This document shows, piece by piece, positions 31,949-51,522 of a DNA stretch of 64,000 bases. Source of the stretch: Streptomyces sp. NBC_01231 (lineage in GTDB: Bacteria; Actinomycetota; Actinomycetes; Streptomycetales; Streptomycetaceae). The notes below the pieces were generated by a model, which was not told the origin of the DNA, did no database searches, and was given only the letters and a program-made list of their open reading frames with translations. Where the stretch lies: NCBI GenBank assembly GCA_035999765.1, contig CP108521.1, positions 7,688,001-7,752,000 on the forward strand, written 5' to 3'. Positions within the stretch are counted from its first letter, which is position 1. The number at the start of each line of letters is the position of its first letter. A program made the translations under genes and the position numbers.

Positions 31949-31963
31949 TGAATCAATGAATCA
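31949..31963. promoter_or_regulatory. Candidate glycan-regulon operator upstream of nagZ
   Basis: TGAATCAATGAATCA matches the perfect palindrome at 41451-41465 at 12 of 15 positions. It lies just upstream of a possible promoter for the GH3 gene. Confidence 0.5.
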
Positions 31964-31971
31964 TCGATCTG

Positions 31972-32000
31972 TTGACTTTCGGCTGATCGAGCCAGAGTAT
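31972..32000 (+). promoter_or_regulatory. Possible promoter of the GH3/nagZ gene
   Basis: TTGACT (31972-31977), 17 bp, then GAGTAT (31995-32000). The expected transcription start coincides with the ATG at 32008, which would give a leaderless mRNA and explain the missing ribosome-binding site. The -10 match is weak. Confidence 0.35.
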
Positions 32001-32007
32001 GGGCGGG

Positions 32008-33516
32008 ATGACCCATGTCGAGCACCTGTCCCTGAGCGCCGCTCTCCCCGTCGACCTCGACGAGGCCGCCCATCGCTGTCTCGTCGCCGGGTTCGAGGGG
32101 ACCACGGTGGTTCCCGACACGCTGAAGCGGCTCGTCGACCGCGGTCTCGGCGGGGTCATCCTGTTCACCCGGAACGTGCGGGACGCCGAGCAGGTGCGAC
32201 GCCTCACCGACACCCTGCGGGCCATGCGTCCCGACCTGCTGGTGGGAATCGACAACGAGGGCGGCGGCATCGGCCACCTGGTCGGCGCCGGCGCCCCCGA
32301 CGTCCCCGGCAACTTCGCCCTCGGTGTCGTCGACGATCCCCGGCTCACCGCCCGCTGCGCCGACGCGCTCGCCGGGCATCTGGCCGTGCTCGGTATCACC
32401 GCCTCCTACGCACCCGTCGCCGACGTCCAGCGGCAGCCGGACAACCCGATCGTGCGCACCCGCGCCTTCGGCACGGACCCCGAGCTGGTCTCCCGTCATC
32501 TGCGGGCCTGGATCGAGGCCACCGAGGCACGCGGCATCGCCTCCTGCGCCAAGCACTTCCCCGGGCACGGCGGCACCCTCACCGACAGCCACCACGACGT
32601 CGCCGTCGACCCGCGCCCGTACGACGACCTCGACCTCGCTCCCTTCCGGGCCGCCATCACCGCGGGCGTGCCGATGCTGATGAGCGCCCACGTGGTGTTC
32701 CCGCAGCTGGACGCCAACCGGCCTGCCACCCTCAGCCGCCGCATCCTGAACGATCTGCTGCGACTCGACCTCGGCTTCGAGGGTGTGCTGGTCAGCGACG
32801 CCCTGGAGATGAAGGCGATCGCCGACCTCTACGGCGAGGCGGCCGGGGCCCGGATCGCGCTCGCCGCGGGAGCGGACCAGGTGATCGTGGCCGTCCCGGA
32901 TCTGGAGGTCACCCTGTCCTGTCGGGACGCGCTGCTGGGCGCGCTGAACTCCGGCTTGCTGTCCGAGGAGCGCGTGCTGGAGGCCGCCGGGCGGGTGCGG
33001 CGGCTCGCCGAGCGGTACGCGACGCCGGTGACCGCTGTCGCCGCGTGGGACCCGGAGGCCGGGATGGAGGCCGCGCGCCGTGCCGTTCACGGCCAGGATG
33101 GATTCGGGCCGGTGCGAGGCGCCCACGTGGTCGACCTGTTCCCGCCGCCGCATCCGGCGCTCAACTGGGGCGGCGAGGACCTGCTGAGCGAGCTGCGGGC
33201 CGTCGACCTCACCGCCACGGGCACCACCGTCACCGGCGAGGCCGCGGATCCGGTCTCCCTCGCCGACGGGACCGCCCGCGTCTCCGAGGGCGCGCCCCTG
33301 ATCGTCGCCACCTGCGACGCCGACCTGCACCCCTGGCAGCGGCACATGCAAGGCGCCCTGCTGGCCCGACGGCCGGACGCGATACGGGTGGCCACCGGGC
33401 TGCCGGACGGCGACGCCCTGTGCTCGTACGGCCGGGGGCGGGCGAACCTGCGGGCGGTGGCGGAGGTCCTGACGGGCGTCGGCGCGGTCGGTCGGCTGAG
33501 TCCGCAGGGCCGCTGA
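32008..33516 (+). CDS. Beta-N-acetylhexosaminidase, GH3 NagZ-like
   Basis: 502 residues. The GH3 barrel carries the NagZ signature CAKHFPGHGGTLTDSHHDVA, whose flexible-loop His acts as general acid in this subfamily, and the nucleophile Asp in VLVSDALEM. About 150 residues follow the barrel as a second domain. No signal peptide, so it works in the cytoplasm on imported GlcNAc-ended sugars. The start could be 32008 or 31999; neither has a good ribosome-binding site. It leads the 31.9-51.5 kb glycan locus and has an operator-like sequence upstream. Confidence 0.9.
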   Translation: MTHVEHLSLSAALPVDLDEAAHRCLVAGFEGTTVVPDTLKRLVDRGLGGVILFTRNVRDAEQVRRLTDTLRAMRPDLLVGIDNEGGGIGHLVGAGAPDVPGNFALGVVDDPRLTARCADALAGHLAVLGITASYAPVADVQRQPDNPIVRTRAFGTDPELVSRHLRAWIEATEARGIASCAKHFPGHGGTLTDSHHDVAVDPRPYDDLDLAPFRAAITAGVPMLMSAHVVFPQLDANRPATLSRRILNDLLRLDLGFEGVLVSDALEMKAIADLYGEAAGARIALAAGADQVIVAVPDLEVTLSCRDALLGALNSGLLSEERVLEAAGRVRRLAERYATPVTAVAAWDPEAGMEAARRAVHGQDGFGPVRGAHVVDLFPPPHPALNWGGEDLLSELRAVDLTATGTTVTGEAADPVSLADGTARVSEGAPLIVATCDADLHPWQRHMQGALLARRPDAIRVATGLPDGDALCSYGRGRANLRAVAEVLTGVGAVGRLSPQGR

Positions 33517-33547
33517 GCAGGGCCGCTGAGCCGGGCATCTGAGCCGG
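33509..33547 (+). repeat. Three 13-bp tandem repeats spanning the nagZ stop
   Basis: Units of the type GCCGCTGAGCMGG follow one another with TGA at 33514, 33527 and 33540. The first TGA is the gene's stop codon. Confidence 0.85.
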
Positions 33548-33566
33548 CGGAATCAGACGGAGAGAT

Positions 33567-33592
33567 CGGGTGCGCGATCGCTCGCGCACCCG
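33567..33592. terminator. Bidirectional terminator between convergent GH3 and GH5 genes
   Basis: A perfect 11-bp stem (CGGGTGCGCGA, 33567-33577, with 33582-33592) and a TCGC loop sit in the 101-bp gap between the two stops. Confidence 0.8.
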
Positions 33593-33617
33593 CGTGGCCG
33601 GGCCTCGCGGCCGGCGC

Positions 33618-34868
33618 TCAAGGCAGGTGGACGACCTCCTTGATCCCGCGCGCGGCCAGGTGTTCCGGGTCGTCGGCCCGGGTCGCCAGGACCACCGCCG
33701 GGCGGGTGCCCTCCGTGCGCAGGCGCATCCACGCCTCGAAGTACGCACCGCCCGGACCGGACACCGAACGCGTGGCCGGGGTGCAGTCCAGGACCAGGGC
33801 GGTCTCGCGCGGTTGGGGTGCGGGCGGCTGGGCGCGCAGGTCGGCGACGGTGGCGGCGAGGGCCCGGGCGATCGGCTTGGCGCGGCCCGCCGAGTCGAAC
33901 AGGCCCAGGGTGTACTCGAGTTCCGGGTAGTCGGCCAGGGCGCGGTCCACGTCGTGGGAGCACCACCAGGTCACGCCCCACAGACCCGTGCACCCGGCCG
34001 CGTTCCGTACGGTCGCCTCCGCGAACCCGGGCGCGTCGGCGGCCGGGATGTGCGGCTCGGGCGCGCCCGTCTCCTGGACCCAGACGGGCCGGGCCGGATC
34101 GTCGGCGTACGCCTTCGCCAGTTCCGTGCCGTACTCGGCGAGGTGCAGCACCTGCGGGGAGCCAGGGCCGTAGCGGCGGGCGCAGTCGCCGGAGAACACC
34201 CACGGGTGCACGGTGGTCAGATCGCCCTTGCGGGCCGAGGCCTCGGGGGTGAAGGGGTGGTCGTCGCCGTACCAGGCGGCGTCGTACGCGGAGTGCGTGG
34301 CCAACTGGCCGGGGCGCAGGCCCTCACGGGCGGCGGCCAGCAGGGTGTCGAGGTAGTGGTCGACCTCCTGGGCCGTCGCCGGGTTGTGCTCGACCATGTT
34401 GTTGAGCTCGTTGCCGAGCTGGAGTCCGAGGAGGTTGGGGCGGTCGGCCAGGGCGTGACCGAGGGTGCGCAGGAGTTCGGCCTGTGCCGCGATGGCCTCC
34501 GGGTTCGTGAACACGTTGCGGTGGTGCCAGGCGCGGGTCCACTCCGGGTAGAAGTCGAAGCTCGACAGATGGCCCTGCACGCCGTCCACGAGGACGTCCA
34601 GACCGGCCTCGCCCGCCAGGTCGACGAGCCGCGCCAGCTGGTCCACGGCGGCGGTACGCACGAGCGTGCGGTTGGGCTGGAGGAGCGGCCAGAGGTGGAA
34701 GACCCGGACGTGGTCGAGGCCGAGCCCGGCTATCTGCTCCAGGTCCTCGCGCGCGTGCGCGGGGTCGAAGTCGTGCCAGGAGTGGAACCAACCGCGGCGG
34801 GGCGTGTAGTTGACGCCGAAGCGGAGCGTGTCGATGGGATCCTCCTCGGGTCCGGGCTTGTCCTGCAC
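33618..34868 (-). CDS. GH5-type glycosidase, probably GH5_18 beta-mannosidase
   Basis: 416 residues from GTG 34868. The clan-A barrel has the acid/base Glu in LQLGNELNNM and the nucleophile Glu in VWVQETGAPEP; TLRFGVNYTPRRGWFHSWHD near the N-terminus is typical of GH5_18, a subfamily known in bifidobacteria to split Man-beta-1,4-GlcNAc from N-glycan cores. No signal peptide. The start is uncertain: ATGs at 34892 and 34886 are in frame but lie inside the operator/-10 region. A strong GAGGAGG stands before an in-frame ATC codon at 34829-34827 (approximate). Divergent from the GlcNAc kinase. Confidence 0.82.
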   Translation of the reverse strand: MQDKPGPEEDPIDTLRFGVNYTPRRGWFHSWHDFDPAHAREDLEQIAGLGLDHVRVFHLWPLLQPNRTLVRTAAVDQLARLVDLAGEAGLDVLVDGVQGHLSSFDFYPEWTRAWHHRNVFTNPEAIAAQAELLRTLGHALADRPNLLGLQLGNELNNMVEHNPATAQEVDHYLDTLLAAAREGLRPGQLATHSAYDAAWYGDDHPFTPEASARKGDLTTVHPWVFSGDCARRYGPGSPQVLHLAEYGTELAKAYADDPARPVWVQETGAPEPHIPAADAPGFAEATVRNAAGCTGLWGVTWWCSHDVDRALADYPELEYTLGLFDSAGRAKPIARALAATVADLRAQPPAPQPRETALVLDCTPATRSVSGPGGAYFEAWMRLRTEGTRPAVVLATRADDPEHLAARGIKEVVHLP

Positions 34869-34869
34869 G

Positions 34870-34914
34870 AATGTATCAACCACCATAGTCATCGATGGGC
34901 AATGATTTGAACCA
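34870..34914. promoter_or_regulatory. Divergent operator/promoter between the GH5 and GlcNAc kinase genes
   Basis: AATGTATCAACCACCAT (34870-34886) matches the sequence in front of the RpiR gene (47425-47441) at 15 of 17 positions; on the minus strand it contains the -10-like TACATT. On the plus strand CATAGT (34884-34889) is a -10 candidate placing the start of transcription on the kinase ATG. A further half-site TTTGAACCA lies at 34906-34914. Confidence 0.5.
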
Positions 34915-35902
34915 GACGTTGGGCGAGGAACTCGTCGTGGGCCTCGACGCGGGCGGCACCCGCACGCGTGCCGTGCTCGCCGTCGCCCATGCCGACGGGC
35001 CCCTGTTGGGCGAGGGCGCCGCCGGGCCGGGCAACGCGCTGACCGTGCCGGTGCCGCAGCTCACCGACCACCTCACCGAGGCCGTCGCCGACGCGGTCCC
35101 GGAGCGGCTGCGGGGGAGCGTCGTCTCCGTGGTCGGCGGTTTCGCGGGCGCCACGGCGGCGTCCCCGGACGACCCGGGGCACGTCAACGCCCGGTCCGCC
35201 CTCACCGCGGCGCTCCGACGACTGGGCGTCCCGGCCGGGCCGGTCGGCATCTGCAGCGACATCGAGGCCGCCTTCGCCGCCGCGCCCGGCACCCCGGCCG
35301 ACGGACTGGCGCTGGTGGCAGGCACCGGCGCGGTCGCCATGCGCATCACCGACCGGCACGCCACGGCCACCGTGGACGGCGACGGCTGGCTGCTCGGCGA
35401 CGACGGCAGCGGCTTCTGGATCGGACGGGCGGCGGTACGGGCCGCGTTGCGGACGGCGGACGGACGGGGGCCGGCGACCGTGCTGGCGGAGAGCGTCGGG
35501 CGGGCTCTGGGGCTTCCGGACGAGGTGGTGCCGAGCGGCCGGTGGACCCGCGCCGCACGCGAGGCCTACCGCATGCACCTGCTTCCCGCCGTGATGGCCG
35601 AGCCCCCGATCCGGCTCGCGCGGTTCGCCCCACTGGTGGCCGAGGCGGCCGCCGCGAAGGACACCGTGGCCCAGGCCGTTCTGGACGAGGCGGCCGGCCT
35701 GCTGACCGACACCGTACGGGCGCTGGAACCGAACCCCGGTGAGCGGATCGTTGCCACCGGCGGCCTCCTCGGCCCCGACGGCCCGCTCACACCCCGTCTG
35801 ACCACACGCCTGGACGCACTCGGCCTGACCCTCGACTGGGTCGCCGACGGCTCCCGGGGCGCCGTGGCCCTCGCCCGACTCGCGCACGGCGGTGCCCGTT
35901 GA
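34895..35902 (+). CDS. BadF/BadG-family N-acetylglucosamine kinase
   Basis: 335 residues with the ASKHA ATPase motifs: phosphate-1 VVGLDAGGTRTRAVLAV, phosphate-2 LVAGTGAVAMRI and the block DGWLLGDDGSGFWIGR, all typical of eukaryotic-type NagK and bacterial MurK-like amino-sugar kinases. It should phosphorylate GlcNAc freed by the neighbouring glycosidases to GlcNAc-6-P. There is no ribosome-binding site before the ATG at 34895; a leaderless transcript is likely. The stop overlaps the TTG start of the GH3 gene, so the two are co-translated. Confidence 0.87.
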   Translation: MGNDLNQTLGEELVVGLDAGGTRTRAVLAVAHADGPLLGEGAAGPGNALTVPVPQLTDHLTEAVADAVPERLRGSVVSVVGGFAGATAASPDDPGHVNARSALTAALRRLGVPAGPVGICSDIEAAFAAAPGTPADGLALVAGTGAVAMRITDRHATATVDGDGWLLGDDGSGFWIGRAAVRAALRTADGRGPATVLAESVGRALGLPDEVVPSGRWTRAAREAYRMHLLPAVMAEPPIRLARFAPLVAEAAAAKDTVAQAVLDEAAGLLTDTVRALEPNPGERIVATGGLLGPDGPLTPRLTTRLDALGLTLDWVADGSRGAVALARLAHGGAR

Positions 35903-40035: not shown

Positions 40036-40037
40036 CG

Positions 40038-41408
40038 TCAGCCTGCCTGCTTCAGCAGCTCGTTGGCCTTCTCCTGGGCGTCCTTCACGGCCTGTTCGGG
40101 GCTCTTCTTGCCCTGCATCGCCAGCTGCACCTGGGAGACGATGGCGTTCTGCACGGCCGGGGAGAGGTTGGTCTGATAGGCCGTGGTCGTCTTCAGCTGC
40201 TCGGCGACGAGCTTGCGGGCCTCGGAGAACGGGTCGCTGCCGGTCACGTTCTGGAAGAACGGGTCGTTCAGCGAGGTCGTGGTCGTCGGGAAGATCACCA
40301 CGTTCGGGTCCTTGCACCAGGCCGTCTGGTTCTCGGCGTTGGTGAGGAACTCGCCGAAGGCGAGGGCGGCGGCGGCGTGCTTGCTGGTCGAGGCGACCCC
40401 GATGTACTGCGGGGCGGCGGTGACGTGGCCGAGCTGGTCGTAGGGCTGCTGACCGACGCCGGTCTTGTCGTAGACCGACGGGCTGTTCTGCTTCACGAAG
40501 CGCACGAAGCTCGGGTTCGTCGAGCCGTAGGCGACCTTGCCCTGGCTGTACAGGGTGGAGGGGTCGTTGCTGGAGGACAGCGAGTCCTTCGGCATGGCGC
40601 CCTCCTTGTAGAGCTTCGCCATCCAGGCGACCCACTGGGTGGTCCGCGGATCGTTCGCGAACACCGCGGACTTGCCGTCGGCGGAGAGCGTCTTGATGTT
40701 CATCTGGTCGAAGTCGGCCGGTATCCGCCAGATCGGATTGGCCATCGTCGCGTAGTACTCGCCCTTGGCCGACTTGGCGACCTTCTCGTAGTCGGCGAAC
40801 AGCCCGAACAGGGTCGTCGGCGGCTTCGCGGGGTCGACACCGGCCTTCTTCAGCAGATCGGTGTTGTACGTCAGCAGGATGCCGCCGGTGTACCAGGGGA
40901 AGACGGTGTGCGCCGAGGTGCCCGAGGCGTCCTTGAAGGTGCTGGACTTCCAGAACGCCGGGACGAACGGCTTGGCCGAGTCGGGGTCCTTGACGCCCAG
41001 GTTGAGCAGGTAGCCCGCCTTGGTGAGGCTGGTCGCCGTCTCGGCGTTGAGGTTGAGGACGTCCGGCAGGGTGCAGGCCTGGGCGTCGGCGACGGTGCGC
41101 TGGGTGAACGTGTTGTCGCCGGGGTCGTCGATCCACTTGACCTTGGCGTCGGGGTGGGCCTTCTCGAAGTCCTTGATCACTCCGTTGAAGAAGTCCCCGA
41201 AGTCTTTCTTCAGGTTGGTCGTCTGGAAGGTGATCTGGCCCTTGACGTCGCCGGTGAGCTTCCCCGACCCGACGTTGCCCTTGTCGACCTTGCAGCCGCC
41301 GGCGGTGGAGTCACCGCTGTCCGAACCGCCGGACAGGCCGCATCCGGCGGCGGCCAGGGACAGGGCGGCGATACAGGTCAGGGTGCGGGTCAGTCTTCTT
41401 GCGCGCAT
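40038..41408 (-). CDS. Sugar-binding lipoprotein of ABC importer (family 1)
   Basis: 456 residues with lipobox AAAGC-G (Cys near 23), a Gly/Ser-rich tether and a MalE-like domain (GQITFQTTNLKKDFGDFFN, VLNLNAETATSLTKAGYLLNL, PWYTGGILLTYNTDLLKKAGV). It presents an oligosaccharide to the two permeases. AGGAGGGCCC stands before the ATG. The promoter region contains the best copy of the locus palindrome. The neighbouring glycosidases suggest a mannose/GlcNAc-containing ligand. Confidence 0.93.
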   Translation of the reverse strand: MRARRLTRTLTCIAALSLAAAGCGLSGGSDSGDSTAGGCKVDKGNVGSGKLTGDVKGQITFQTTNLKKDFGDFFNGVIKDFEKAHPDAKVKWIDDPGDNTFTQRTVADAQACTLPDVLNLNAETATSLTKAGYLLNLGVKDPDSAKPFVPAFWKSSTFKDASGTSAHTVFPWYTGGILLTYNTDLLKKAGVDPAKPPTTLFGLFADYEKVAKSAKGEYYATMANPIWRIPADFDQMNIKTLSADGKSAVFANDPRTTQWVAWMAKLYKEGAMPKDSLSSSNDPSTLYSQGKVAYGSTNPSFVRFVKQNSPSVYDKTGVGQQPYDQLGHVTAAPQYIGVASTSKHAAAALAFGEFLTNAENQTAWCKDPNVVIFPTTTTSLNDPFFQNVTGSDPFSEARKLVAEQLKTTTAYQTNLSPAVQNAIVSQVQLAMQGKKSPEQAVKDAQEKANELLKQAG

Positions 41409-41450: not shown

Positions 41451-41465
41451 TGGTTCAATGAACCA
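41451..41465. promoter_or_regulatory. Perfect palindromic operator of the sugar importer operon
   Basis: TGGTTCA-A-TGAACCA, a perfect 7-1-7 palindrome 43 bp upstream of the binding-protein start. A further half-site TGGTTGATGA lies at 41476-41485. Used here as the reference for the other copies. Confidence 0.7.
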
Positions 41466-41549
41466 ACTTCGACTCTGGTTGATGAAAAGGTGGACCAGAA
41501 TTCATCGGAGGTCAATGGTTTCCGTGTTGCTTTTCGGTTCCGTGCGAGA

Positions 41550-42182
41550 TCAGTGCCGGTGCTCGTGGTCCGGATGCGACGGATCGCCCGGGTGCTCGTG
41601 CCCGTGCGCGTACACCACACCCGCGCGCGCCCGGTCCAGCCAGTCGAAGAAGGCCCGTCGGCCCGCCGCCCGCCGCAGCTCGCCCACGACCCCCTCGCGG
41701 ACCTCCTGGTACGGCAGGAAGTCCCCCTCGGACTCCCCGCCGAAGGGGTCCACCCCGCGCCTGAGCGCCTCCGGGGTGAGGAAGCGGTCCCGGTTGCGGT
41801 CGTAGTAGTCCCGTACCGCCGCTTCGGGCACGTCCTGCCCGGCCTCCAGCTCGGCCAGCAGCAGCCGCGCCGCCGGGGAGTGGGCGAGCGCCGCCGCGAC
41901 GATGCTGCCCAGGTCGGCCACGTCGGCCTCGGCCACGGCGAGCACCTCCGGCGACACCTCCGCCGGGGGTGCGAGCCCCCGGTCCGCGCAGGCCCGGCGG
42001 GCGAGTTCGTCGGTGACCACGACCTGGGTGGCCCAGCGCCGCCGCTGCCGTTCGGCACGGGCGAGGGCCTCGGGACGGGTCTCGCGGTCGCGGGGCGGGA
42101 CCGCCCGCAGGAGGGCGTCCACGCGGTCCCCGCTGATCGCGGCGCCGTCCACCACGGCGGCGTACCCGGTCGGAGGGCTCAT
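41550..42182 (-). CDS. SurA/parvulin-like protein with His-rich tail, coupled to the alpha-mannosidase
   Basis: 210 residues. The opening VVDGAAISGDRVDALLRAV and the later VPEAAVRDYYDRNRDRFLTPEAL are the pattern of SurA/PrsA-type foldases (short N-terminal helix pair, then the DYYxxxxxRF segment). The parvulin isomerase domain itself seems missing or reduced. The last 20 residues hold six His and four Asp/Glu (HGHEHPGDPSHPDHEHRH), a likely metal-binding tail. No signal peptide, so it is cytoplasmic. The ATG overlaps the alpha-mannosidase stop (ATGA). Inference: a dedicated chaperone or zinc donor for the zinc-dependent mannosidase. Confidence 0.7.
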   Translation of the reverse strand: MSPPTGYAAVVDGAAISGDRVDALLRAVPPRDRETRPEALARAERQRRRWATQVVVTDELARRACADRGLAPPAEVSPEVLAVAEADVADLGSIVAAALAHSPAARLLLAELEAGQDVPEAAVRDYYDRNRDRFLTPEALRRGVDPFGGESEGDFLPYQEVREGVVGELRRAAGRRAFFDWLDRARAGVVYAHGHEHPGDPSHPDHEHRH

Positions 42183-45100
42183 GGCGTCACCTCCAGCGTG
42201 ACCGCCTCCGTGTAGGCGACCAACCCGTGCCAGGCGACCTTCGCCAGCAGCCAGTACGCCCCCGGCGGCACCGCCGACCCGTCCACCTCGATCACGCACT
42301 CCAGCTCCTGCCCGCCGTCCACCGTGAACCCCTGGCAGCCGGGCCCGACCCCCGCCCAGGTGCCCCACGACGACAGCGCCCACAACTGCCCGCTCACCGG
42401 GCCCCGGGTGGGGTTCCGCACGGTCACCGGCACCCGGGCGCGCTCGCCCCGGCGCACGGTGACCCGCTCCACGCCCAGCCGGGACACCAACGTCGGTCCG
42501 GTGTGCCCGTCGGGCACGTCCAGCGCCACGACGTCCTCGTACGTCTGCCCGTCGTGCGACAGCCGGGCCGCCAGCCAGTGCCGGCCCGGCTCGGCGTCCG
42601 GCGGCGGGGTCACCGTGACCTCGCCGAGGCTGAACCCGCCCGGGCCCAGCGCGTACGGCAGTTCGGCGGGCTCGGCCGACCAGCCGGGCGGCACCTGGAA
42701 GGTCACCGTGCCCCGCGCCGGCGCGTCGGTCAGCTCCGAGCCGACCCGGACGGTCGCGGTGACGGGAGCGGAGGCGGTCAGCGCGGCGGGGGAGAGGTAG
42801 ACGGCCACGGGCAGGTTGCCGCGGGGCGCGGGCCCGGAGTTGTGCAGCCAGTAACGGGTGTGGACGGGCTGGGCGGGCTCGTGGGCCGCGACCGAGGGGC
42901 CCGGGGACGGTGCGGTGTCCACCGCGGGCGTGCCGAGGACCGTCGCCACCTCGAAGCCGGTCAGCGAGACGTCCAGCACGCCTTCCCCGTCCGGCGCCAG
43001 CGGCTCCCCGGGCCTCTCCAGTACGTCCGCCCGGGCGCCGTCCAGCCATCGCGCCGGCCCCCGCAGCCGTGCCCGCACCGGCCGCCCGTTCACCTCGTGC
43101 ATCCGGACGACGACCCCGCCCTGCGGTTCGACGGGGGCCATGCTGCCCCGGGCGAGCGGGGAGCCGGCCGGTTTGAGCGCGTCGAGGAGGACCTCGCGGG
43201 CCGGCTCCAGGGTGAGCAGGGAGACGGTCCTGGGCAACACGGAGGTCGCGTCCGCGTCCCGCCGCCGGGCGGTCAGCGGATGGTTGAACTCGTGTCCCCG
43301 CGCGGGCAGTCGCAGCTCCCGCCAGTCGCCCTCGCCGGCCACGACGGCGTACTCGAAGGTGTGGGACCAGCGCTGGAGCTGGAAGGCGGAGCCGTCCGGA
43401 GCCGTGCGGCGCGGCGGGTCGATCCAGATGCCGGACGGCCAGCCGGTGCAGGACCGCATCAGCGACAGGTAGAGGTCGCCGGACGCGGTGACCACGCAGC
43501 CGGGCGTGCCCCGGTTGAGGACGGCGAAGCCGCGCCCGTCCCAGGCGTCGCCCGGAGGCAGCGCCTCGCCGCCGCCCGCCGCGGTGGCCGTGACGCTGAA
43601 GTCGTCCAGGTCGGCGATCAGCGCGTCGACCGCTTTGACGTCGTCCTCGGGCCGGGCCCCCGCCACCACGAGCAGCGGCAGCCGCTCCAGGTCGCGCAGG
43701 TCGGCCCCGGGCACCCACTCCTCGCGCAGCGAGGCGCGCGGCGCGACCCACACGGCCGCCACCCCCCGCTCGGCCAGCTGCCGTGCGAGTTCGCGTCCGG
43801 CGGCCGGGTCCCAGCCGAGGGCCTCCTCGACCACCGGGTTGCGGTCGGGGCCGCCGACGGCGATCCGGATGTCGGGGAGGTTGGAGTCGATCTCCAGGTC
43901 GCCGTAGCGGGGGCCGCCCGCAATCGTCGAGGTCGCGGTGACACCCGCGCGCACCAGGGCGGCAGCGAGCGGAGTACCGAGGTCACCGGCGGCGCCCCAG
44001 TCCGCGTACACCAGCTCCGCGACACCGATCGAACGGTGACCGAGGAACGTACCGGAGTCGTCGTGGACCGCGACCCGGGCGGTGGAGCCCAGCCCGAACC
44101 AGGTGTTGGCCGGGTTGTCCAGCGTCCACGGGAACTGCTCGCTGTCCACCTCGACGAACCCGAACCCGCGCCCGATGACGGCGTCCGCCACCTCGTGCAC
44201 CGGCAGTCCGCCGCGTACGTCGGAGGGCCAGCGCACCCTGATCAGCCGGTCGGCGCCGTCGTAGCCGTCGACGGTCGTGGTGACGTCCAGGCGGTCGACG
44301 CCCGCCCACAGCGTCAGCCGCTGGGTGTACCGGAAGAGCCCGAGGTCGGCGCGGACGGTGATCCGCGATCCGGCGGGGGAGCGCTCGACCTCGACCTCGG
44401 CGCTCACGTCCCCGCTGCGGGCGGCGGTCGTGCCGGTGGGCGTGAGGTGCCAGGGGCCCTCGCCGAAGTGCGGGTGGCGCGGGTACTCCTCCTGGACGAC
44501 GAGTTCGTTGCCGATGTCGCCGGGGCGCAGCAGGTCCCGGCCGCCCTCCTCGGCGAGCGCGCGCAGACCGCTGACGGCACCGCCGCGTCCGGGATCGACC
44601 GTCACCTCGTAGAACTCGTTGCGAATGGTCGTTCCCTCGCCGGGCGTCCACCCGGGCACCGATCCCTGGGCCAGGGGGAGGGCCTTGAGTCCCATGCCCG
44701 GCACCTCCGGTACGACGACCCTGAGCCGGCCGTCGTCCTCGCGGACGGCGGGCAGCGGCCGCGAGGCGTCGTCCACGGGGACCAGGCCCGGGTCCTCGAC
44801 CGTGAGGACGTCCCGGCGCTGCCAGGTCGCGGAGTTGAAGACCACCAGGTCGGGGCCGCTGCCCGGGGCCACCCGGTCGGCGAGGGCCCGGGTCGCGTCG
44901 GCGTGCACGGTCTCGGCGAGGTCGTACAGCTCCCGCCAGCCGGTGAGCAGGTCGATGTAGACCTGGTCGGACTCGGAGCCGGTGACGGCGTCGTGGTGGG
45001 CGCCGTAGACGAGTTGCCGCCACGCCTTGTCGAGGGCCGCGTCGGGATAGGGGTGGCCGGTGACCAGCGAGGCGAGCGTCGCCCAGGCCTCCGCGTCGGC

Positions 45101-46411
45101 GAGCAGGGCCTCGCCGTGTCGCTGGGCCTGCTTGGTGTCGATGTAGGAGACGTCCTTGCCGGTGTAGATCGGGTTCATGTCCCGCGTCTGCGGGGAGGCC
45201 CTGCGGCCTTCCTCGTCGAGCTGTGCGCGGACGGCGGCGAAGAAGTCCCGGGGGACGGCGCTGACGAACCGCGGCCACACGTACCGGTCGTTCCAGTCGT
45301 GGTGGATGTCCATCACCCAGCGGCACGGCGGCGCGTAGTCCCCGCCGACCGGCAGCAGCACGTTCCGGGTGAGCGCGACCTTCTTCAGCCCCTTGAACAG
45401 CTTGAGGGCCGCGGCCTCCGCCTCGGGCAGGGCGGGTGCGCTGTCGATCACCCAGCCGGCGGCGTAGTGGTTGACCATGTACGCGGTCAGCAGCCCGCGT
45501 CCCGAGGGCGCGATCCACTCGAACTCGGCGGGGAACTGCATCCGGCCGGGGTCGCGCGGCTCCTCGCCGAACACGGACATCGTCGGTCCCCACTGGTGGT
45601 ACGGCCCGCGCGCCCACGAGCTGGAGGTGACCCCCGCGTCCGCCATCAGCCCCGGGAACTGCGGATCGTGCCCGAACGCGTCCAGCTGCCAGGCGGTCTC
45701 GGGGGACGCCCCCATGATCCCGCGCTGGAACCCGTCGCCGTACAGCGCGTTGCGTACGGTCGCCTCGGCGCCGGTGAGGTTGGTGTTCGGCTCGTTGTAG
45801 GTACCGCCCATGACCTCGACGCGTCCGGTGCGGATCAGCTCACGCAGGAAGGCGCGCTCCTCGGGGAAGGCGTCCCAGTAGGGCTTGAGGTAGTCGACCT
45901 CGGCGAGCACGAAGGTGTACGCCGGGTCGCGCCGGGCCAGGTCGGAGTGGGCCCGCACCAGGCTCATGCCGGAGTCGCCGCGGTAGCCGAAGGGGCGGGC
46001 GGGCAGGCCCGTGGAGGCGGGGTCGTCGCGGACGTCCCAGGTCTCGGTGTAGGCGGCCTGGGTGTTCCACCAGACGGGGTCGTAGTGGAAGTGGCTGACC
46101 ATGAACATCGTCCAGCCGGGCTCGGCGGCGACGAACTCACCTGTGTGGTGGGCTAGTTGGTCCCCGTCGGCGGCGGTGACCGTGATCGCGCGGCGCTCGC
46201 CGACGGCCAGATCGGCGGTCACCGGTATCTCGGCGCGCAGGGTGCCGTCCTCGGTCACCGTGGCGTCCACGGTGCCGTGCACGCCGGGGCCCTCGACGGT
46301 GAGCCGGACCGTCCGGCCGGGGGTGTGGCTCAGCTCGACGGCCACCACCTGGCGCGGCTGCTCGGTGGTTCCGACGAAGAGCTCGGTCGACTCGACACAG
46401 GACACGCGCAT
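42179..46411 (-). CDS. Alpha-mannosidase, GH38, with extra C-terminal beta domains
   Basis: 1410 residues, longer than typical GH38 enzymes of about 1000. The catalytic barrel starts near residue 100 with the zinc site VSHFHYDPVWW (H109, D111) and has the nucleophile Asp in QLDAFGHDPQFPG. GH38 enzymes need zinc or a similar divalent metal and remove alpha-linked mannose. Residues about 1150-1410 look like NEW3/immunoglobulin-like beta domains (TVRVGSELTDAPARGTVTFQV). No signal peptide despite these domains. TAGGAG precedes the ATG at 46411. Its stop overlaps the start of the His-tailed protein. Confidence 0.93.
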   Translation of the reverse strand: MRVSCVESTELFVGTTEQPRQVVAVELSHTPGRTVRLTVEGPGVHGTVDATVTEDGTLRAEIPVTADLAVGERRAITVTAADGDQLAHHTGEFVAAEPGWTMFMVSHFHYDPVWWNTQAAYTETWDVRDDPASTGLPARPFGYRGDSGMSLVRAHSDLARRDPAYTFVLAEVDYLKPYWDAFPEERAFLRELIRTGRVEVMGGTYNEPNTNLTGAEATVRNALYGDGFQRGIMGASPETAWQLDAFGHDPQFPGLMADAGVTSSSWARGPYHQWGPTMSVFGEEPRDPGRMQFPAEFEWIAPSGRGLLTAYMVNHYAAGWVIDSAPALPEAEAAALKLFKGLKKVALTRNVLLPVGGDYAPPCRWVMDIHHDWNDRYVWPRFVSAVPRDFFAAVRAQLDEEGRRASPQTRDMNPIYTGKDVSYIDTKQAQRHGEALLADAEAWATLASLVTGHPYPDAALDKAWRQLVYGAHHDAVTGSESDQVYIDLLTGWRELYDLAETVHADATRALADRVAPGSGPDLVVFNSATWQRRDVLTVEDPGLVPVDDASRPLPAVREDDGRLRVVVPEVPGMGLKALPLAQGSVPGWTPGEGTTIRNEFYEVTVDPGRGGAVSGLRALAEEGGRDLLRPGDIGNELVVQEEYPRHPHFGEGPWHLTPTGTTAARSGDVSAEVEVERSPAGSRITVRADLGLFRYTQRLTLWAGVDRLDVTTTVDGYDGADRLIRVRWPSDVRGGLPVHEVADAVIGRGFGFVEVDSEQFPWTLDNPANTWFGLGSTARVAVHDDSGTFLGHRSIGVAELVYADWGAAGDLGTPLAAALVRAGVTATSTIAGGPRYGDLEIDSNLPDIRIAVGGPDRNPVVEEALGWDPAAGRELARQLAERGVAAVWVAPRASLREEWVPGADLRDLERLPLLVVAGARPEDDVKAVDALIADLDDFSVTATAAGGGEALPPGDAWDGRGFAVLNRGTPGCVVTASGDLYLSLMRSCTGWPSGIWIDPPRRTAPDGSAFQLQRWSHTFEYAVVAGEGDWRELRLPARGHEFNHPLTARRRDADATSVLPRTVSLLTLEPAREVLLDALKPAGSPLARGSMAPVEPQGGVVVRMHEVNGRPVRARLRGPARWLDGARADVLERPGEPLAPDGEGVLDVSLTGFEVATVLGTPAVDTAPSPGPSVAAHEPAQPVHTRYWLHNSGPAPRGNLPVAVYLSPAALTASAPVTATVRVGSELTDAPARGTVTFQVPPGWSAEPAELPYALGPGGFSLGEVTVTPPPDAEPGRHWLAARLSHDGQTYEDVVALDVPDGHTGPTLVSRLGVERVTVRRGERARVPVTVRNPTRGPVSGQLWALSSWGTWAGVGPGCQGFTVDGGQELECVIEVDGSAVPPGAYWLLAKVAWHGLVAYTEAVTLEVTP

Positions 46412-46461
46412 GGGGCTCCTACGAGGATGCTCGGCGAAACCCCATCGTGGCACCGGAAGGA

Positions 46462-46476
46462 TGATTCAAACAACCA
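46462..46476. promoter_or_regulatory. Candidate operator of the alpha-mannosidase gene
   Basis: TGATTCAAACAACCA matches the reference palindrome at 12 of 15 positions, 51 bp upstream of the start. A second, weaker copy TGGTTCATCCATACA is at 46494-46508. Confidence 0.5.
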
Positions 46477-46533
46477 TCATTGTGTAATTCCGGTGGTTCA
46501 TCCATACACATTCGGCCGCGCGCGCCGCGACCC

Positions 46534-47418
46534 TCAGCGCGCGCGCCGGTTCTTCACCGTGTGCCGTCCCGCGATGTGGTCGGTCAGCGCGAGCGTGGAG
46601 CTCGCGCGCTGGTAGGTGAGCTGGGCGACCCGGACGTAGAGGCAGTCGATGAGGACCAGGACGGAGTGCCGGGCGCCGATGATGCCGGTGGGGAAGCTGG
46701 TCTCCGAGGTGGAGGAGATGAGCCGGATGTCGGCGGCGCGGGCGAGCGGCGAGCGGGGGTCGGCGGTGATCGCGACAGTCGTGGCGCCGCGCTCGTTGGC
46801 GAGCTCGAACGGCTCGATGGTCTCGCGGGTCGCCCCGGAGTGCGAGATGGCGATGGCGACGTCCGCCGGGGTGAGCAGGGCGGCGGAGGTGCTGGCCGCG
46901 TGCACCTCGGTCCAGCCGCGGACCGTGCAGCCGATGCGGAACAGCCGGGTCTCGGTCTCCTCGGCCACCGCGCCGCTGCCGCCCACGCCGTACACGTCGA
47001 TCCGGCGGGCGCGGGCCATGGCCTGGGCGCCGCGCTCGATCGCGTCGAGGTCGATCCGGTCGATGGTCTGCTGGACCGCGCGCAGATCGGCGCTGCCCAC
47101 GACCTGGACGACCCGCTCGAGGTCGTCGTCGGGGGAGACGTCCGGGCCGATCTCGGCGGTGCCCCAGTCGGAGGCCTGGCCGCGACCGTGCTCCTGGGCC
47201 AGCTCGATCAACAGGTGCTGGTAGGAGTCGAGGCCGATCGCGCGGCAGAACCGGGTCACCGTTGCCTGGGAGGTGCCGGTGCGGCGGCCCAGCTCCGCGG
47301 CCGAGCAGTGGGTGACGGCGGCCGGATCCTCCAGGATCAGCTCGCCGACCTTCCGCAGGGAGCCGGCCAGCCGGGGCAGCTCGGTGCGGATGAGGGTGGT
47401 GACGTCCGTCGGGGGCAT
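46534..47418 (-). CDS. RpiR-family transcriptional regulator with SIS domain
   Basis: 294 residues: an N-terminal RpiR helix-turn-helix (GELILEDPAAVTHCSAAELG, RTGTSQATVTRFCRAIGLDSY, about residues 20-65) and a C-terminal SIS sugar-phosphate domain (ARRIDVYGVGGSGAVAEETE, VAIAISHSGATRETIEPFEL). RpiR proteins sense phosphosugars such as MurNAc-6-P, GlcNAc-6-P or glucose-6-P. It sits between the alpha-mannosidase and the divergent SIS-protein gene, in the centre of the locus, and is the most likely reader of the palindromes. A TACATT -10 element lies exactly so that transcription would start on the ATG (leaderless). Confidence 0.92.
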   Translation of the reverse strand: MPPTDVTTLIRTELPRLAGSLRKVGELILEDPAAVTHCSAAELGRRTGTSQATVTRFCRAIGLDSYQHLLIELAQEHGRGQASDWGTAEIGPDVSPDDDLERVVQVVGSADLRAVQQTIDRIDLDAIERGAQAMARARRIDVYGVGGSGAVAEETETRLFRIGCTVRGWTEVHAASTSAALLTPADVAIAISHSGATRETIEPFELANERGATTVAITADPRSPLARAADIRLISSTSETSFPTGIIGARHSVLVLIDCLYVRVAQLTYQRASSTLALTDHIAGRHTVKNRRAR

Positions 47419-47424
47419 GGGAAG

Positions 47425-47441
47425 AATGTATCAGCCACCGT
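47425..47441 (-). promoter_or_regulatory. Promoter/operator of the RpiR gene
   Basis: AATGTATCAGCCACCGT; on the minus strand TACATT (47430-47425) is seven bases before the ATG at 47418. The sequence is shared with 34870-34886, suggesting autoregulation or shared control. Confidence 0.5.
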
Positions 47442-47473
47442 TCATGGGGCGGATTGAATACCAGGACCGTGCA

Positions 47474-47522
47474 TGATTTATTGATTCACCTCTTGAGATG
47501 TATAGGGTGGTTCAATCCATCA
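47474..47522 (+). promoter_or_regulatory. Promoter with two candidate operators before the SIS-protein gene
   Basis: TGATTTATTGATTCA (47474-47488, 10 of 15 to the reference) covers a -35 candidate, TATAGG (47501-47506) is a -10 candidate, and TGGTTCAATCCATCA (47508-47522, 12 of 15) covers the expected transcription start. Confidence 0.5.
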
Positions 47523-47537
47523 ACAGGGGAGTGTCGC

Positions 47538-48302
47538 GTGTCCGTCGAGTCCGTCAGCGCCCAGGGGTTCGCGCGCGCGAGCCTGGCCGTCCTCCAGCAC
47601 ATCACCGAGTCCGCCCGCGAGGACGTGGCCCGCGCCGCCGGACTGATCGCCGACACCATCCGTGCGAACGGCGTCATACAGGCCTTCGGCACCGGCCATT
47701 CCCAGGCGATCGTCCTCGAACTCGCGGGCCGTGCCGGGGGGTTGGTGCCCACGAACCGGCTGAGCATCGCCGACCTCGTCCTGTACGGCGGCGACGACCC
47801 CACCGTCCTCGACGACCCGCTGCTGGAACGTCAGGCCGGTGTCGCCGCGCGGCTCTACGACCTCGCCGCCCCGCATCCCCAGGACCTCTTCGTCGTCATC
47901 TCCAACTCCGGCGTCAACAACGTGATCGTCGAGATGGCCCTGCGCGCCAAGGAGCAGGGCCACCGGATCCTGGCCATCACCTCCCTCACCCACACCCGGG
48001 CGGTCCCCGCCGGCCACCCGAGCGGCAAGAAGCTCGCCGACCTCGCCGACGTCGTCCTCGACAACGCGGCCCCACGCGGCGACGCCCTCCTGGAACTCCC
48101 GAACGGCGGCGCGGTGTCCGCCCTGTCCACGCTCACCGGCGTGATGCTGGTCCAGATGGCGGTCGCGGAGGCCTCCGCCCTGCTCCTCGCCGCCGGTGAG
48201 AACCCTCCGGTGTACGTCTCGGCCAACGTGCCCGGCGGCTTCGAGGGCAACCTGGAGCTGGAGAAGCGGTACGCGGGCCGGATCCGGCGTACCGCGAGCT
48301 GA
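47538..48302 (+). CDS. UPF0309-type SIS-domain protein, possible GlcNAc-6-P-processing enzyme
   Basis: 254 residues from GTG 47538, preceded by GGGGAG. One SIS domain: IQAFGTGHSQAIVLELAGRAGG, LFVVISNSGVNNVIVEMALR and SGKKLADLADVVLDN. The UPF0309 family includes the S. coelicolor protein SCO4393, which I recall being described as NagS, acting on GlcNAc-6-P; this is from memory and should be checked. Divergent from rpiR and flanked by two operator-like sites. It fits a step after the GlcNAc kinase. Confidence 0.85.
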   Translation: MSVESVSAQGFARASLAVLQHITESAREDVARAAGLIADTIRANGVIQAFGTGHSQAIVLELAGRAGGLVPTNRLSIADLVLYGGDDPTVLDDPLLERQAGVAARLYDLAAPHPQDLFVVISNSGVNNVIVEMALRAKEQGHRILAITSLTHTRAVPAGHPSGKKLADLADVVLDNAAPRGDALLELPNGGAVSALSTLTGVMLVQMAVAEASALLLAAGENPPVYVSANVPGGFEGNLELEKRYAGRIRRTAS

Positions 48303-48356: not shown

Positions 48357-48361
48357 GTTTC

Positions 48362-51300
48362 CTACTCGACCGGTACGGGTGTCAGCGCGACGGCGAGCGG
48401 ATACGCCCCGGTCGTCAGAGGCGCGCCCGTGGTGCCCTTCGCGGTGTCGACCGGTACCAGGGTGTTGCCGTCGGCGGTGGTCACGTACGCCGTGGCGCCG
48501 TTCCAGTCGAGGCCGACGTCGAAGGCCGACCTGCCGACCTCGATGCTCGGGCCGGGTGCGCCGGTGACCGTGTCGACCGGGGTGACCGAGTCGCCGTTGC
48601 TGGGGCTGATCCAGAGGGTGCGGCCGTCGGGTGAGAGGGCGAGGCCGTAGGCCTGGCCCGAGACCAGGAGCGTCGGCTCGGTGTCGTTGGTGGCGGTGTC
48701 GATGGGAGTGACCGTCGAGCCGCCGGAGTTGGACACGTAGACCGTCTTCCCGTCGGGCGCGGCCACCACGTTGAAGGGGCTGGGGCCCACCGGGACCGGG
48801 TCCTTCGCCGTGCCGGTGGTGAGGTCCACCGGGGTCACGGTGTTGTCGTGGATGTTCGCCACGTAGAGGGTCGTGCCGTCGGGCGTGATCGCCATGTTCT
48901 CCGGTCCGGAGCCGACCGTGACGGGAGTGCCCGCCTTCAGGGTGCCGGTGTCCACGGGCTGGACCGTGCCGTCCGTGTAGTTGGCGACCCAGAGGGTGTC
49001 GCCGTCGGGGGTGAGGGCGAGGCCGGCCGGGACGTGGCCCACGGCGACCGTGGCGGTGACCCTGCCGCTCGCCACGTCGATCACGCTGACCGTGTTCGAG
49101 CCCTGGTTGGCGGCGTAGGCGGTGCGACCGTCGGAGCTCACGACCACCTCGCCGGGGTTGTTGCCGACGGTGATGTTCGTGCTCGTGCCGGAGGCCAGGT
49201 CGACCGAACTGACCGACGCCCCGCTGAAGTCGGCGGTCAGCGCGCGGGACGAGCCCGCGCCGTCGGTGACCTGGATCGGGATCGCGCAGTCGAGGAGTCC
49301 CGTGCCCGACACGACGACGGAGTGGACCCCTTGCGCGACGGCGGTCAGAGTGACGGCGACCGAGGCGCTCCCCCCGGCCGGGACGGTCGCGGTGCCCTCG
49401 GCGGGCGAGGCGGTGACGCCGTCGGGTACGTCGAGCTTCCAGGTGACGGTCTTCGCGGATGTGGACCGCTTGTCGGACAGGGCGAGGGTCACCGTCTCGG
49501 AGGCTCCGGGCTTCAGGGAGAGGGAGGAGGGGGCGAAGGAGGCGTCGACGCCGGGGTCGGGCGCGTTCTCCAGCATCGTCGTGTAGAGGAACTGGTCCAT
49601 GACGCCAGGGGAGACCTGCTGCGGAATCGCGTCGAGCTTCTTGCGCTCGGTCCTGAGCTCGTTCCAGTACGTGGTGACGGCGTCCGTGTCGCCCCGCTTG
49701 TTGGCGAGGAGCAGGTCCACCGCCGTGCGCCCCGCGGTGCCGTAGCGGCCGAGTTTGTCGAGCCACGCGGAGGTCTCGTCGAGGAAGCCGGGGTTGTCGA
49801 GGTGGGCGCGCAGTTCGGCCGGAGTCGCGGCCATGTCGGTGAAGTACGACGTCAGCCGGGCGGCCGCGCGGTCGAGCCCCTTGTCCTGCTCGTAGGCCGT
49901 GCGGAAGTCCGCGATGAGCCGGGCGAGGGTGGGGGACTCCGTCGTGTCGAGCTGGGAGGAGTAGTTGTTCTCGGCGAAGACGCGCAGCCATCGCGCCGCT
50001 TCGGGACCGGCGAGGTCGCGGGCGGAGGCGAGGAAGGCGGCCCGGGGGTCGTAGGCGTGCGGGTTCCACAGGTAGGCGGCGGAGGTGAACAGGGCGATCC
50101 GGCTCGCCTCGCCCTGGACCATGGGGTTCGCGGTCACCCCGGTCGCGGCGCTGGCGACTCCCGGCTCCCGGCCCGTGTAGGGGCCGAGCAGCAGCCGGCT
50201 GGTGACGTAGTCGTTCACCGGGTAGTTGTCCCAGACCAGGATCGGATGGCCGTACACCTGGCGGGCCTGCGTGACCTGGTCCGCGGTGATGGTCGGCGCG
50301 ATGACGCCGACGCCGGTCCACTCCACGACCACGGACGGGTCGAGCTTGTCCCGCAGCGCCTTCTTGTACGGGGAGTCGGCGAGGTCGGAGTACTCGGTGG
50401 GGACCATCTCCAGCGGTTCCAGGTCCGGGTGTTCACCGGAGAACTCCTGCCAGACCCGGTTGAGGAGATGCGCCTGCGCGGCACCCGCCGCCCCGCCCCC
50501 GGTGCCGAACTCCTTCTCGTCGGCGTCGCAGTTCCACTTGGTGTAGCTGATGTCGTCCAGCGGGATCGCGAAGGAGCGGACGCCGATGGCGTAGAGCGAG
50601 TCGAACTTGTCCGTCAGGGCCTTGATGTCGGCGTCGGAGGAGTAGCAGACGGACAGACCGGGGGAGAGGGCGTAGGTGAAGCGGACGTGGTTGGCGGCGG
50701 CCCGGTCGACGAGTTCCTTCAACCGGCCCAGTTCGGCGGCCGGATAGGCGTCGCGCCAGCGGGCGCGCAGGTACTCGTCGTCCTTGGGGGAGTAGACGTA
50801 GACGTTCTGTTTTGTACGGCCGTAGAAGTCCAGCTGGTTCAGGCGCTCGGACTGGGTCCACGGAGTGCCGTAGAAACCCTCGATCACTCCGCGGAGCGCG
50901 GCGGTGGGCCAGTCGCGGACGGTCACCTCGGGCAACACCCGTGCGGATCCGAGGAGTTGGCGCAGGGTCTGGGCCGCGTAGAAGGTGCCCGTGGTGTCCA
51001 CGCCGGAGAGGGCGAGGAGCGCCCGCCCGTTGCTCCGTCCGGAGGACAGGACGTAGCCGCCGGAGGCCAGGCCGGTCGGCGGGGTGGCGCCCAGCCGTTT
51101 CAGTGCCGTGCCCGTCGCGGTGTTCTCGTCGGGGCCGCCGAGATAGACGGTGAGTCCGGCCGCGGGTGGCCGGTCACCGGCGTCGACGGTGGTGATCCGG
51201 TCGGCTCCGGCGGCGCGCAGGGCGGTCTCGACGACCCGCCGGGCCGAGGGGTCGGTGCCGTGGCCGACGACCTCCACCACCCGGTCGGGGACGGTGATCC

Positions 51301-51451
51301 GACCCGGTCCCGTGCGCATGCTCTGGGGTGTCGGCCACACCTGCGGCACGCTCTGCCGGGGTTCCGCCGAGGCGTGTCCCGCGGGGACCGCGAGACCGAT
51401 GGCCAGCAGCAGGGCGACGACGGTACGTCTGACGCGTGAGGGTGGAAGCAC
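48362..51451 (-). CDS. Secreted GH84 beta-N-acetylglucosaminidase fused to a YVTN beta-propeller
   Basis: 1029 residues from a GTG preceded by GAGGAGAACCC. Signal peptide (VVALLLAIGLAVPAGHASA, residues about 10-29), a GH84 N-terminal beta domain, the catalytic barrel with ALRGVIEGFYGTPW and the paired catalytic Asp in IPLDDISYTKW, a helical region, an immunoglobulin-like domain (FAPSSLSLKPGASETVTLAL), then about seven YVTN-type blades from residue about 720 to the end (SSDGRTAYAANQGSNTVSVI and similar). GH84 enzymes remove beta-linked GlcNAc from proteins, glycans or hyaluronan. It is the only clearly secreted glycosidase of the locus. Confidence 0.92.
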   Translation of the reverse strand: MLPPSRVRRTVVALLLAIGLAVPAGHASAEPRQSVPQVWPTPQSMRTGPGRITVPDRVVEVVGHGTDPSARRVVETALRAAGADRITTVDAGDRPPAAGLTVYLGGPDENTATGTALKRLGATPPTGLASGGYVLSSGRSNGRALLALSGVDTTGTFYAAQTLRQLLGSARVLPEVTVRDWPTAALRGVIEGFYGTPWTQSERLNQLDFYGRTKQNVYVYSPKDDEYLRARWRDAYPAAELGRLKELVDRAAANHVRFTYALSPGLSVCYSSDADIKALTDKFDSLYAIGVRSFAIPLDDISYTKWNCDADEKEFGTGGGAAGAAQAHLLNRVWQEFSGEHPDLEPLEMVPTEYSDLADSPYKKALRDKLDPSVVVEWTGVGVIAPTITADQVTQARQVYGHPILVWDNYPVNDYVTSRLLLGPYTGREPGVASAATGVTANPMVQGEASRIALFTSAAYLWNPHAYDPRAAFLASARDLAGPEAARWLRVFAENNYSSQLDTTESPTLARLIADFRTAYEQDKGLDRAAARLTSYFTDMAATPAELRAHLDNPGFLDETSAWLDKLGRYGTAGRTAVDLLLANKRGDTDAVTTYWNELRTERKKLDAIPQQVSPGVMDQFLYTTMLENAPDPGVDASFAPSSLSLKPGASETVTLALSDKRSTSAKTVTWKLDVPDGVTASPAEGTATVPAGGSASVAVTLTAVAQGVHSVVVSGTGLLDCAIPIQVTDGAGSSRALTADFSGASVSSVDLASGTSTNITVGNNPGEVVVSSDGRTAYAANQGSNTVSVIDVASGRVTATVAVGHVPAGLALTPDGDTLWVANYTDGTVQPVDTGTLKAGTPVTVGSGPENMAITPDGTTLYVANIHDNTVTPVDLTTGTAKDPVPVGPSPFNVVAAPDGKTVYVSNSGGSTVTPIDTATNDTEPTLLVSGQAYGLALSPDGRTLWISPSNGDSVTPVDTVTGAPGPSIEVGRSAFDVGLDWNGATAYVTTADGNTLVPVDTAKGTTGAPLTTGAYPLAVALTPVPVE

Positions 51452-51474
51452 GGGTTCTCCTCAGAGGCCGCGGG

Positions 51475-51522
51475 TGAATTCATCCACCAAGTGATGTTAG
51501 AGATGTTGAATTGAGCATTCAA
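51475..51522 (-). promoter_or_regulatory. Promoter and operators of the GH84 gene
   Basis: On the minus strand TTGAAT (51522-51517) and TAACAT (51499-51494) are exactly 17 bp apart, so transcription should start near 51487. TTGAAT-TGAGC-ATTCAA (51506-51522) is an inverted repeat over the -35, and TGAATTCATCCACCA (51475-51489, 9 of 15 to the reference) covers the start site. Confidence 0.55.

Follow-up and report, generated by a model that had tools for sequence, protein, structure and literature searches.

A palindromic box family in a glycan locus

The window analysed here is a 64,000-nucleotide stretch of Streptomyces sp. NBC_01231 (contig CP108521.1, positions 7,688,001 to 7,752,000), and the subject is a family of 15-bp palindromic boxes in the promoter gaps of a sugar-gene locus that also encodes an RpiR-type regulator. 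The locus starts with a nagZ-like GH3 beta-N-acetylhexosaminidase (31999..33516, plus strand; start codon uncertain, score slightly below the NCBIfam cut-off), a GH5_18 exo-beta-mannosidase of the N-glycan-core type (33618..34892, minus strand; best solved match ScGH5_18, PDB 7lr7, E 1.6e-145) and a BadF-type, N-acetylglucosamine (GlcNAc)-kinase-like gene, hereafter NagK (34895..35902, plus strand). It continues with a second GH3 gene, two permeases (approximately 38138-40040) next to the sugar-binding protein (SBP) of an ABC importer (40038..41408, minus strand), a gene with no Pfam match, and a GH38 alpha-mannosidase (42179..46411, minus strand; assigned by Pfam, with the ATG at 46411 chosen as start). 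The RpiR gene (46534..47418, minus strand) is followed by a SIS protein of the PRK02947 family, homologous to NagS/SCO4393 (47538..48302, plus strand; the frame suggests a GTG start at 47538), and a GH84 beta-N-acetylglucosaminidase that is probably secreted (48362..51451, minus strand). The RpiR protein has the domain layout of its family, with an N-terminal HTH_6 domain (Pfam, 6.2e-12) and a C-terminal SIS domain (6.7e-22), and it is the only product of the locus genes scanned in which a DNA-binding domain was detected. GH38 and GH5_18 enzymes with a hexosaminidase and an importer have been proposed to dismantle the N-glycan core in Cutibacterium acnes (available part of PMC6160142). Because the locus has the same set of functions, together with the GH5_18 match, it is most likely an N-glycan locus.

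The box family is seen most clearly as the perfect palindrome TGGTTCAATGAACCA at 41451..41465, upstream of the SBP gene, with related sequence at the same place in relatives. A search of the window found 12 of 15 positions matching this palindrome at 31949, 46462 and 47508, direct inspection gave 10 of 15 at 47474 and 9 of 15 at 51475, and exact copies of a shared 17-mer lie at 34870 and 47425. The sequence-only reading had placed all of these sites correctly, and we add boxes at 46494-46508, 51507-51521, 34868-34882 (around the 17-mer) and 34900-34914. Searching the window for the palindrome TGGTTCANTGAACCA with up to three mismatches gave six matches against 0.53 expected, a number reached in none of 100 shuffles. 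The earlier claim that such matches are exclusively intergenic did not hold, as two of the six lie inside reading frames and outside the locus gaps. One (8795-8809, 12/15) is within a 248-aa, membrane-protein-like open frame at 8402-9148, and the other (31765-31779, 13/15) is within a protein-kinase gene. A PknG-like protein kinase with a TPR domain (29494-31803) adjoins nagZ.

The boxes are nearly confined to the locus

To score sites, we used a symmetrised matrix trained solely on the two boxes, A and B, of the RpiR/SIS gaps of other Streptomyces. Five of the six promoter gaps of the locus thus contributed nothing to the matrix; the sixth, between RpiR and SIS, is orthologous to the gaps used for training, and its hits are not independent evidence. 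All ten top-ranking matches in the window fall within the six gaps: the nagZ box, RpiR/SIS boxes B and A, the SBP box, two boxes each at GH38 and GH84, the GH5_18/NagK box and, at 31953, the nagZ box again in a shifted, overlapping register. Outside the locus gaps, the highest match is at 8795 (rank 13, 11.8 bits). Eight matches reach 14 bits or more, compared to a mean of 0.08 in 50 approximate dinucleotide shuffles, one of which reached 19.7.

The nagZ box TGAATCAATGAATCA (31949..31963) has the highest score of the window (28.9 bits) and lies just before a -35-like element, TTGACTT. In the GH5_18/NagK gap, box 1 (34868..34882, 12.9 bits) overlaps the 17-mer at 34870-34886, and box 2, CAATGATTTGAACCA (34900..34914, 5.2 bits), overlaps the start of NagK; both are kept in relatives. 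Upstream of GH38 are box 2, TGATTCAAACAACCA (46462..46476, 21.3 bits, conserved), where an opposite-strand TTGAAT may serve as a -35 element, and box 1, TGGTTCATCCATACA (46494..46508, 17.0 bits). The RpiR/SIS gap holds box B, TGATTTATTGATTCA (47474..47488), and box A, TGGTTCAATCCATCA (47508..47522), and the GH84 promoter holds box 2, TGAATTCATCCACCA (51475..51489, 15.3 bits), in which GGTGGATGMATTCACC is conserved in most of the GH84 rows seen, and box 1, TGAATTGAGCATTCA (51507..51521, 13.8 bits).

The second copy of the 17-mer (47425..47441, an exact match) reads GGTGGCTGATACATTCTTCCCATG on the RpiR strand and forms a weak box over a -10-like TACATT six bases before the RpiR ATG. The sequence-only reading had treated the 17-mer as a second motif. 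Its two exact copies are real, but both overlap boxes of the family described here, clearly at 34868 and weakly at 47423 (7.7 bits). An independent second motif is thus improbable, and the 17-mer is probably a weaker, degenerate member of the box family.

We then extended the search to the 11,338,389-bp chromosome. The relaxed palindrome TGRWTNANTNAWYCA has three perfect matches, all in the locus, and its reversed control has none; since the pattern was drawn from sites in the window, only its absence elsewhere is informative. With one mismatch allowed there are 21 places, compared to four for controls: five in the locus, the window site at 8795, and 15 elsewhere. A profile built from 48 of 92 available rows of other species (24 boxes, each entered in its two orientations) found four places on the chromosome at E<=10. 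These are nagZ, which ranked first, SBP and both RpiR/SIS boxes, and the weaker GH38, GH84 and NagK boxes are not among them. The E-values, 4-9, are individually not significant, and the weight of this search rests on all four places falling within one 16-kb stretch.

Thirteen of the 15 off-locus one-mismatch sites lie outside the frames called by a crude filter, and at 31-34 bp, the spacing described below, no neighbour of any of the 15 scores more than 6 bits. We accept none of them as regulon members, although the site at 5663588 (L104) comes near and may be one: box-like sites of 15.3, 9.6 and 12.4 bits lie within about 50 bp before a sulfate-permease-like gene, the 15.3-bit neighbour at -17 and the 12.4-bit neighbour at +30. 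L106 has several neighbouring sites at 15-43 bp. At 5366193 (L102), GATGGTTCAAAGATCCATC (18.6 bits) stands about 80 bp before an alpha-amylase gene and has no partner box, and at 8024042 (L108) a long palindrome, GTGAAGTGGATTGGTTATCCACTTCAC, precedes an alpha/beta-hydrolase gene and is a candidate operator of an unrelated kind.

Conservation and paired spacing

We compared 80 Streptomyces loci, the best of 123 confirmed, whose RpiR orthologues have 84-94% identity. Allowing up to three substitutions, box B (TGAATCAATAAATCA) is present in all 79 usable RpiR/SIS gaps of other species and box A (TGATGGATTGAACCA) in 65 of the 79; at least seven of the 14 gaps without box A carry the related GGTGGATCAAACCACC. 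The 17-mer element before the RpiR start is conserved in 79 of the 80 loci, where GGTGGCTGATACMTTC occurs with no more than two substitutions within 250 bases before RpiR. Among the rows seen, the boxes also form conserved islands upstream of SBP, GH38, GH84, nagZ and NagK. Thus, 15-bp palindromic or pseudo-palindromic boxes, the operator type of the RpiR family, occur in six sugar-gene gaps and are conserved in relatives.

Box centres are 31-34 bp apart at five of the six promoters in the window. The distance from best to second-best box is 31 bp for nagZ, 32 bp for NagK/GH5_18, GH38 and GH84, 34 bp for RpiR/SIS and 25 bp for SBP. None of 2000 shuffles that kept the best box had four or more promoters at 31-34 bp, a range picked after seeing the data, and 14 had three. 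The partners at GH38, RpiR/SIS and GH84 score far over the shuffle 95% level. The other three are below it: the candidate partner at nagZ (31980..31994) scores 1.7 bits against a level of 5.5, NagK box 2 falls short of 6.2, and the possible second SBP box (41476..41490) scores 5.4 bits against 8.8. Pairing is therefore established firmly at three promoters and weakly at the others.

The same distances are the commonest in relatives, where relatedness among species, and perhaps the presence of some both as locus and as genome, keeps the rows from being independent: 31 bp for nagZ (10/16), 32 bp for NagK (13/23), GH38 (83/94) and GH84 (7/9), and 34 bp for SIS (82/99). For SBP, the second-best box is at 32 bp in 55 of 90 promoters and at 25 bp in 17. 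When distances were taken from the RpiR side, over a shorter stretch that often does not include box A, 34 bp appears in only 25 of 101.

Boxes follow RpiR across the genus

To determine if the boxes are linked to rpiR, we examined 199 Streptomyces genomes. An RpiR match at E<=1e-60 was found in 37; the 29 at 63% identity or more were counted as orthologues, and the remaining eight (42-43%) were counted among the genomes without one. The perfect motif is present in 28 of the 29 genomes with an RpiR orthologue and in 31 of the 170 without (Fisher p 1.3e-16). Sites outnumber reversed controls 58 to 10 in the first group and 39 to 31 in the second. Among the 45 sites listed of the 58 in RpiR genomes, 37 lie no more than 25 kb from rpiR; the other eight do not, and they include the sole sites of G063 and G084. 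A single RpiR genome, G061 (locus L143), lacks a perfect site; it has two imperfect boxes 31 bp apart before its SIS gene. The sequence-only reading would have been undermined by a motif equally frequent at unrelated promoters; on the chromosome and across the genus it is not.

Three diverged RpiR loci (63-81% identity) retain box pairs. Boxes in 32-bp pairs are kept in L119 (RpiR 64%, 3.8 kb of sequence covered) and L144 (RpiR 63%, 20 kb covered), where the RpiR protein carries the helix-turn-helix (HTH) stretch AAELGRRTGTSQATVTRFC of the window and no mannosidase match was found; L116 has a pair 34 bp apart. The genes found near diverged RpiR are SIS and NagK in L143, NagK only in L119, and SIS with a partial NagK match in L144. 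In five loci of another RpiR branch (45-46% identity, with SIS and NagK-like genes), the HTH differs and no site exceeds 8.3 bits. These modules (L120-L124) share another conserved element in their gaps, GAGAATTCTTTCTACC, which may be the operator for this RpiR branch.

We used GH5_18 promoters to further investigate this link. Close GH5_18 relatives (81-100% identity) occur in 25 genomes, including that of the window, all of which have RpiR, and a GH5_18 paralogue (49-62% identity) is widespread. All 18 GH5 promoters in RpiR loci reach 12 bits, a line fixed before the paralogue promoters were scored and after the positive promoters had been seen. In genomes without an RpiR orthologue, none of 20 paralogue promoters reach it (highest 8.7 bits); these genomes were hand-picked from the list, and four (G118, G136, G152 and G192) have a 42-43% RpiR relative. 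Upstream of the paralogue in L151-L162, CGTCAAGGGCTGAmCC is the best weak match in eight of the 20 stretches and is perhaps another regulator's site.

A predicted RpiR regulon

The conserved box family, its near-confinement to the locus and its link to the rpiR gene are observations. Together, the matrix, the chromosome profile, the genus counts and the paralogue-promoter comparison support the proposal, first made in the sequence-only reading, of one regulon covering the glycosidase and importer genes. We conclude that the boxes are most likely operators of the RpiR protein encoded at 46534-47418 and that they switch the genes of the N-glycan locus together, a reading to which we give a probability of about 0.86; binding, repression and effector are inferred. 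As a new regulon of a known regulator family, it would be ordinary in principle. A literature search found no report of a Streptomyces RpiR regulon of this kind, with subscription journals mostly outside its coverage.

Under this model, an RpiR dimer would recognise one 15-bp box, TGRWT-N5-AWYCA. Two boxes 31-34 bp apart would lie on the same face of the helix, so that two dimers or one tetramer could hold both. Without substrate, RpiR would keep the importer, glycosidase, kinase and SIS genes low, along with its own. Imported N-glycan pieces would be broken down to GlcNAc, which the NagK-like kinase would convert to GlcNAc-6-phosphate, and binding of this compound to the SIS domain of RpiR would release the genes. 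Known RpiR proteins bind short pseudo-palindromes and often assemble into tetramers through the SIS domain, where sugar phosphates bind (PMC5489143, PMC12713135; both in available part). The sequence-only reading had named GlcNAc-6-phosphate and mannose-6-phosphate as candidate effectors. GlcNAc-6-phosphate is the better guess, because SIS and GlcNAc-kinase-like genes, and not mannosidases, are seen near diverged RpiR.

A consensus scan of the GH38-RpiR-SIS region (46380-47560) for promoters and terminators found none, and the promoter assignments used here are our reading of the sequence. On that reading, the overlap of the 17-mer with the TACATT before the RpiR ATG suggests autoregulation and a leaderless rpiR message.

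Several points weigh against the regulon as drawn. The support is computational and the operator role is predicted. Since rpiR and the rest of the locus share their inheritance, co-occurrence does not by itself tell RpiR from its neighbours. The locus also includes a gene without a Pfam match (41550-42194). The paralogues from genomes without RpiR are approximately 57-61% identical and lie in other loci, and several readings would predict that they lack the boxes. Two of the 28 genomes, G063 and G084, have their sole sites on contigs other than that of rpiR, and in L092 and L094 (RpiR 87-89%, SIS and NagK nearby, no GH38 match) there is one box with no partner. To these should be added the high E-values of the chromosome profile, the 15 one-mismatch sites elsewhere (top score 20.2 bits), the low-scoring partners at three promoters and the 25-bp distance at SBP.

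The direction of control bears on the most viable alternative, in which RpiR is an activator whose upstream box recruits RNA polymerase once a sugar phosphate stabilises the tetramer, as proposed for NanR of Streptococcus pneumoniae (SpNanR). That protein, itself of the RpiR family, is an activator with a tetramer stabilised by its effector, and its site is followed 23 bp downstream by a degenerate half-site (available part of PMC12713135). The upstream box positions at nagZ and SIS would permit the same here. However, at GH38, SBP, NagK and GH84 the boxes seem to coincide in part with the presumed core promoter or to come after it, with start sites also presumed, and we favour repression for this reason; activation appears unlikely.

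A second alternative is that a different regulator from elsewhere in the genome (for example of the ROK, LacI or GntR family, such as DasR) binds the boxes, and that RpiR regulates something else. The motif does occur in 31 of the 170 genomes without an RpiR orthologue, although sites there are hardly over control. The off-locus site with the top score (9604998, L109) is a palindrome-like sequence between a ROK regulator and a sugar-binding-protein gene, and is perhaps the ROK protein's own operator. The boxes also follow diverged RpiR into loci where, of the genes in the window, only SIS and/or NagK relatives were found, which argues against an outside regulator. DasR governs GlcNAc uptake and metabolism in Streptomyces (available part of PMC12680351). 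We searched the window for dre-like sequences at up to three mismatches and found 22 compared to 14.7 expected (three of 100 shuffles reach 22), none of them in the locus gaps. The pattern was TGGTCTAGACCA, which we take to be the DasR dre-site consensus, and we reject DasR as the binder. Overall, control by an outside regulator is improbable.

That the boxes are just shared -35 and -10 elements of AT-rich gaps in a GC-rich genome is very hard to credit: several touch TTGAAT- or TACATT-like sequences, by our reading, but they are near-palindromic and vary in position relative to such elements, the backwards pattern has no perfect chromosome match compared to three, and the profile finds nothing elsewhere on the chromosome at E<=10.

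Returning to RpiR as the binder, what is new is the paired spacing. It is tempting to propose a spacing code, in which the whole regulon consists of paired operators approximately three helical turns (31-34 bp) apart and is read by an RpiR tetramer that responds to sugar phosphate and clamps the two boxes of a promoter. The code would persist where no mannosidase gene was found and where the protein has diverged by 35-40%. We hold this proposal tentatively, at close to even odds. For N-glycan breakdown in many Streptomyces, the regulon would supply an operator, a regulator and a set of targets that can be tested.

Comparison with known systems

The papers compared here are represented by the parts available to us. 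C. acnes N-glycan locus 1 groups GH38, GH5_18, a hexosaminidase, an ABC importer and a regulator gene as in the window, and differs in having GH20 instead of GH84 and GH3; the available part of that paper describes no operator (PMC6160142). DasR shares the genus and the connection to GlcNAc uptake and metabolism (PMC12680351); it is a GntR-family regulator, and its network, through which GlcNAc is tied to development and antibiotics, appears to be distinct from the RpiR regulon. The locus SIS gene is homologous to NagS (SCO4393; PDB 9eol, E 6.7e-31), but nagS is adjacent to and divergent from dmdR1 (PMC12680351), whereas the SIS gene here is flanked by rpiR and GH84. We therefore do not regard it as the NagS orthologue.

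SpNanR resembles the proposed system in serving a clustered host-glycan locus with several near-palindromic sites, and its amino-sugar-6-phosphate effector and dimer-tetramer behaviour are like those of our model (PMC12713135). It differs in its 18-bp site, TCTGAAAGTACTTTTAGA, with a proposed extra half-site, in acting as an activator and in its sialic-acid pathway. In operator form there is a likeness with RccR/HexR of Pseudomonas, which belong to the same regulator family and recognise a 15-bp pseudo-palindrome of two 6-bp half-sites, TGTAGT-N3-ACTACA (PMC5489143). Their half-site (TGTAGT), ligand (2-keto-3-deoxy-6-phosphogluconate, KDPG) and central-metabolism targets are different. At one target, aceE, two 15-bp sites appear to act cooperatively; these are 68 bp apart compared to approximately 32 bp here (PMC5489143). 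A tetramer on paired sites is still a proposal for SpNanR (PMC12713135), and the regular spacing in this locus offers a natural system for asking whether RpiR proteins act in this way.

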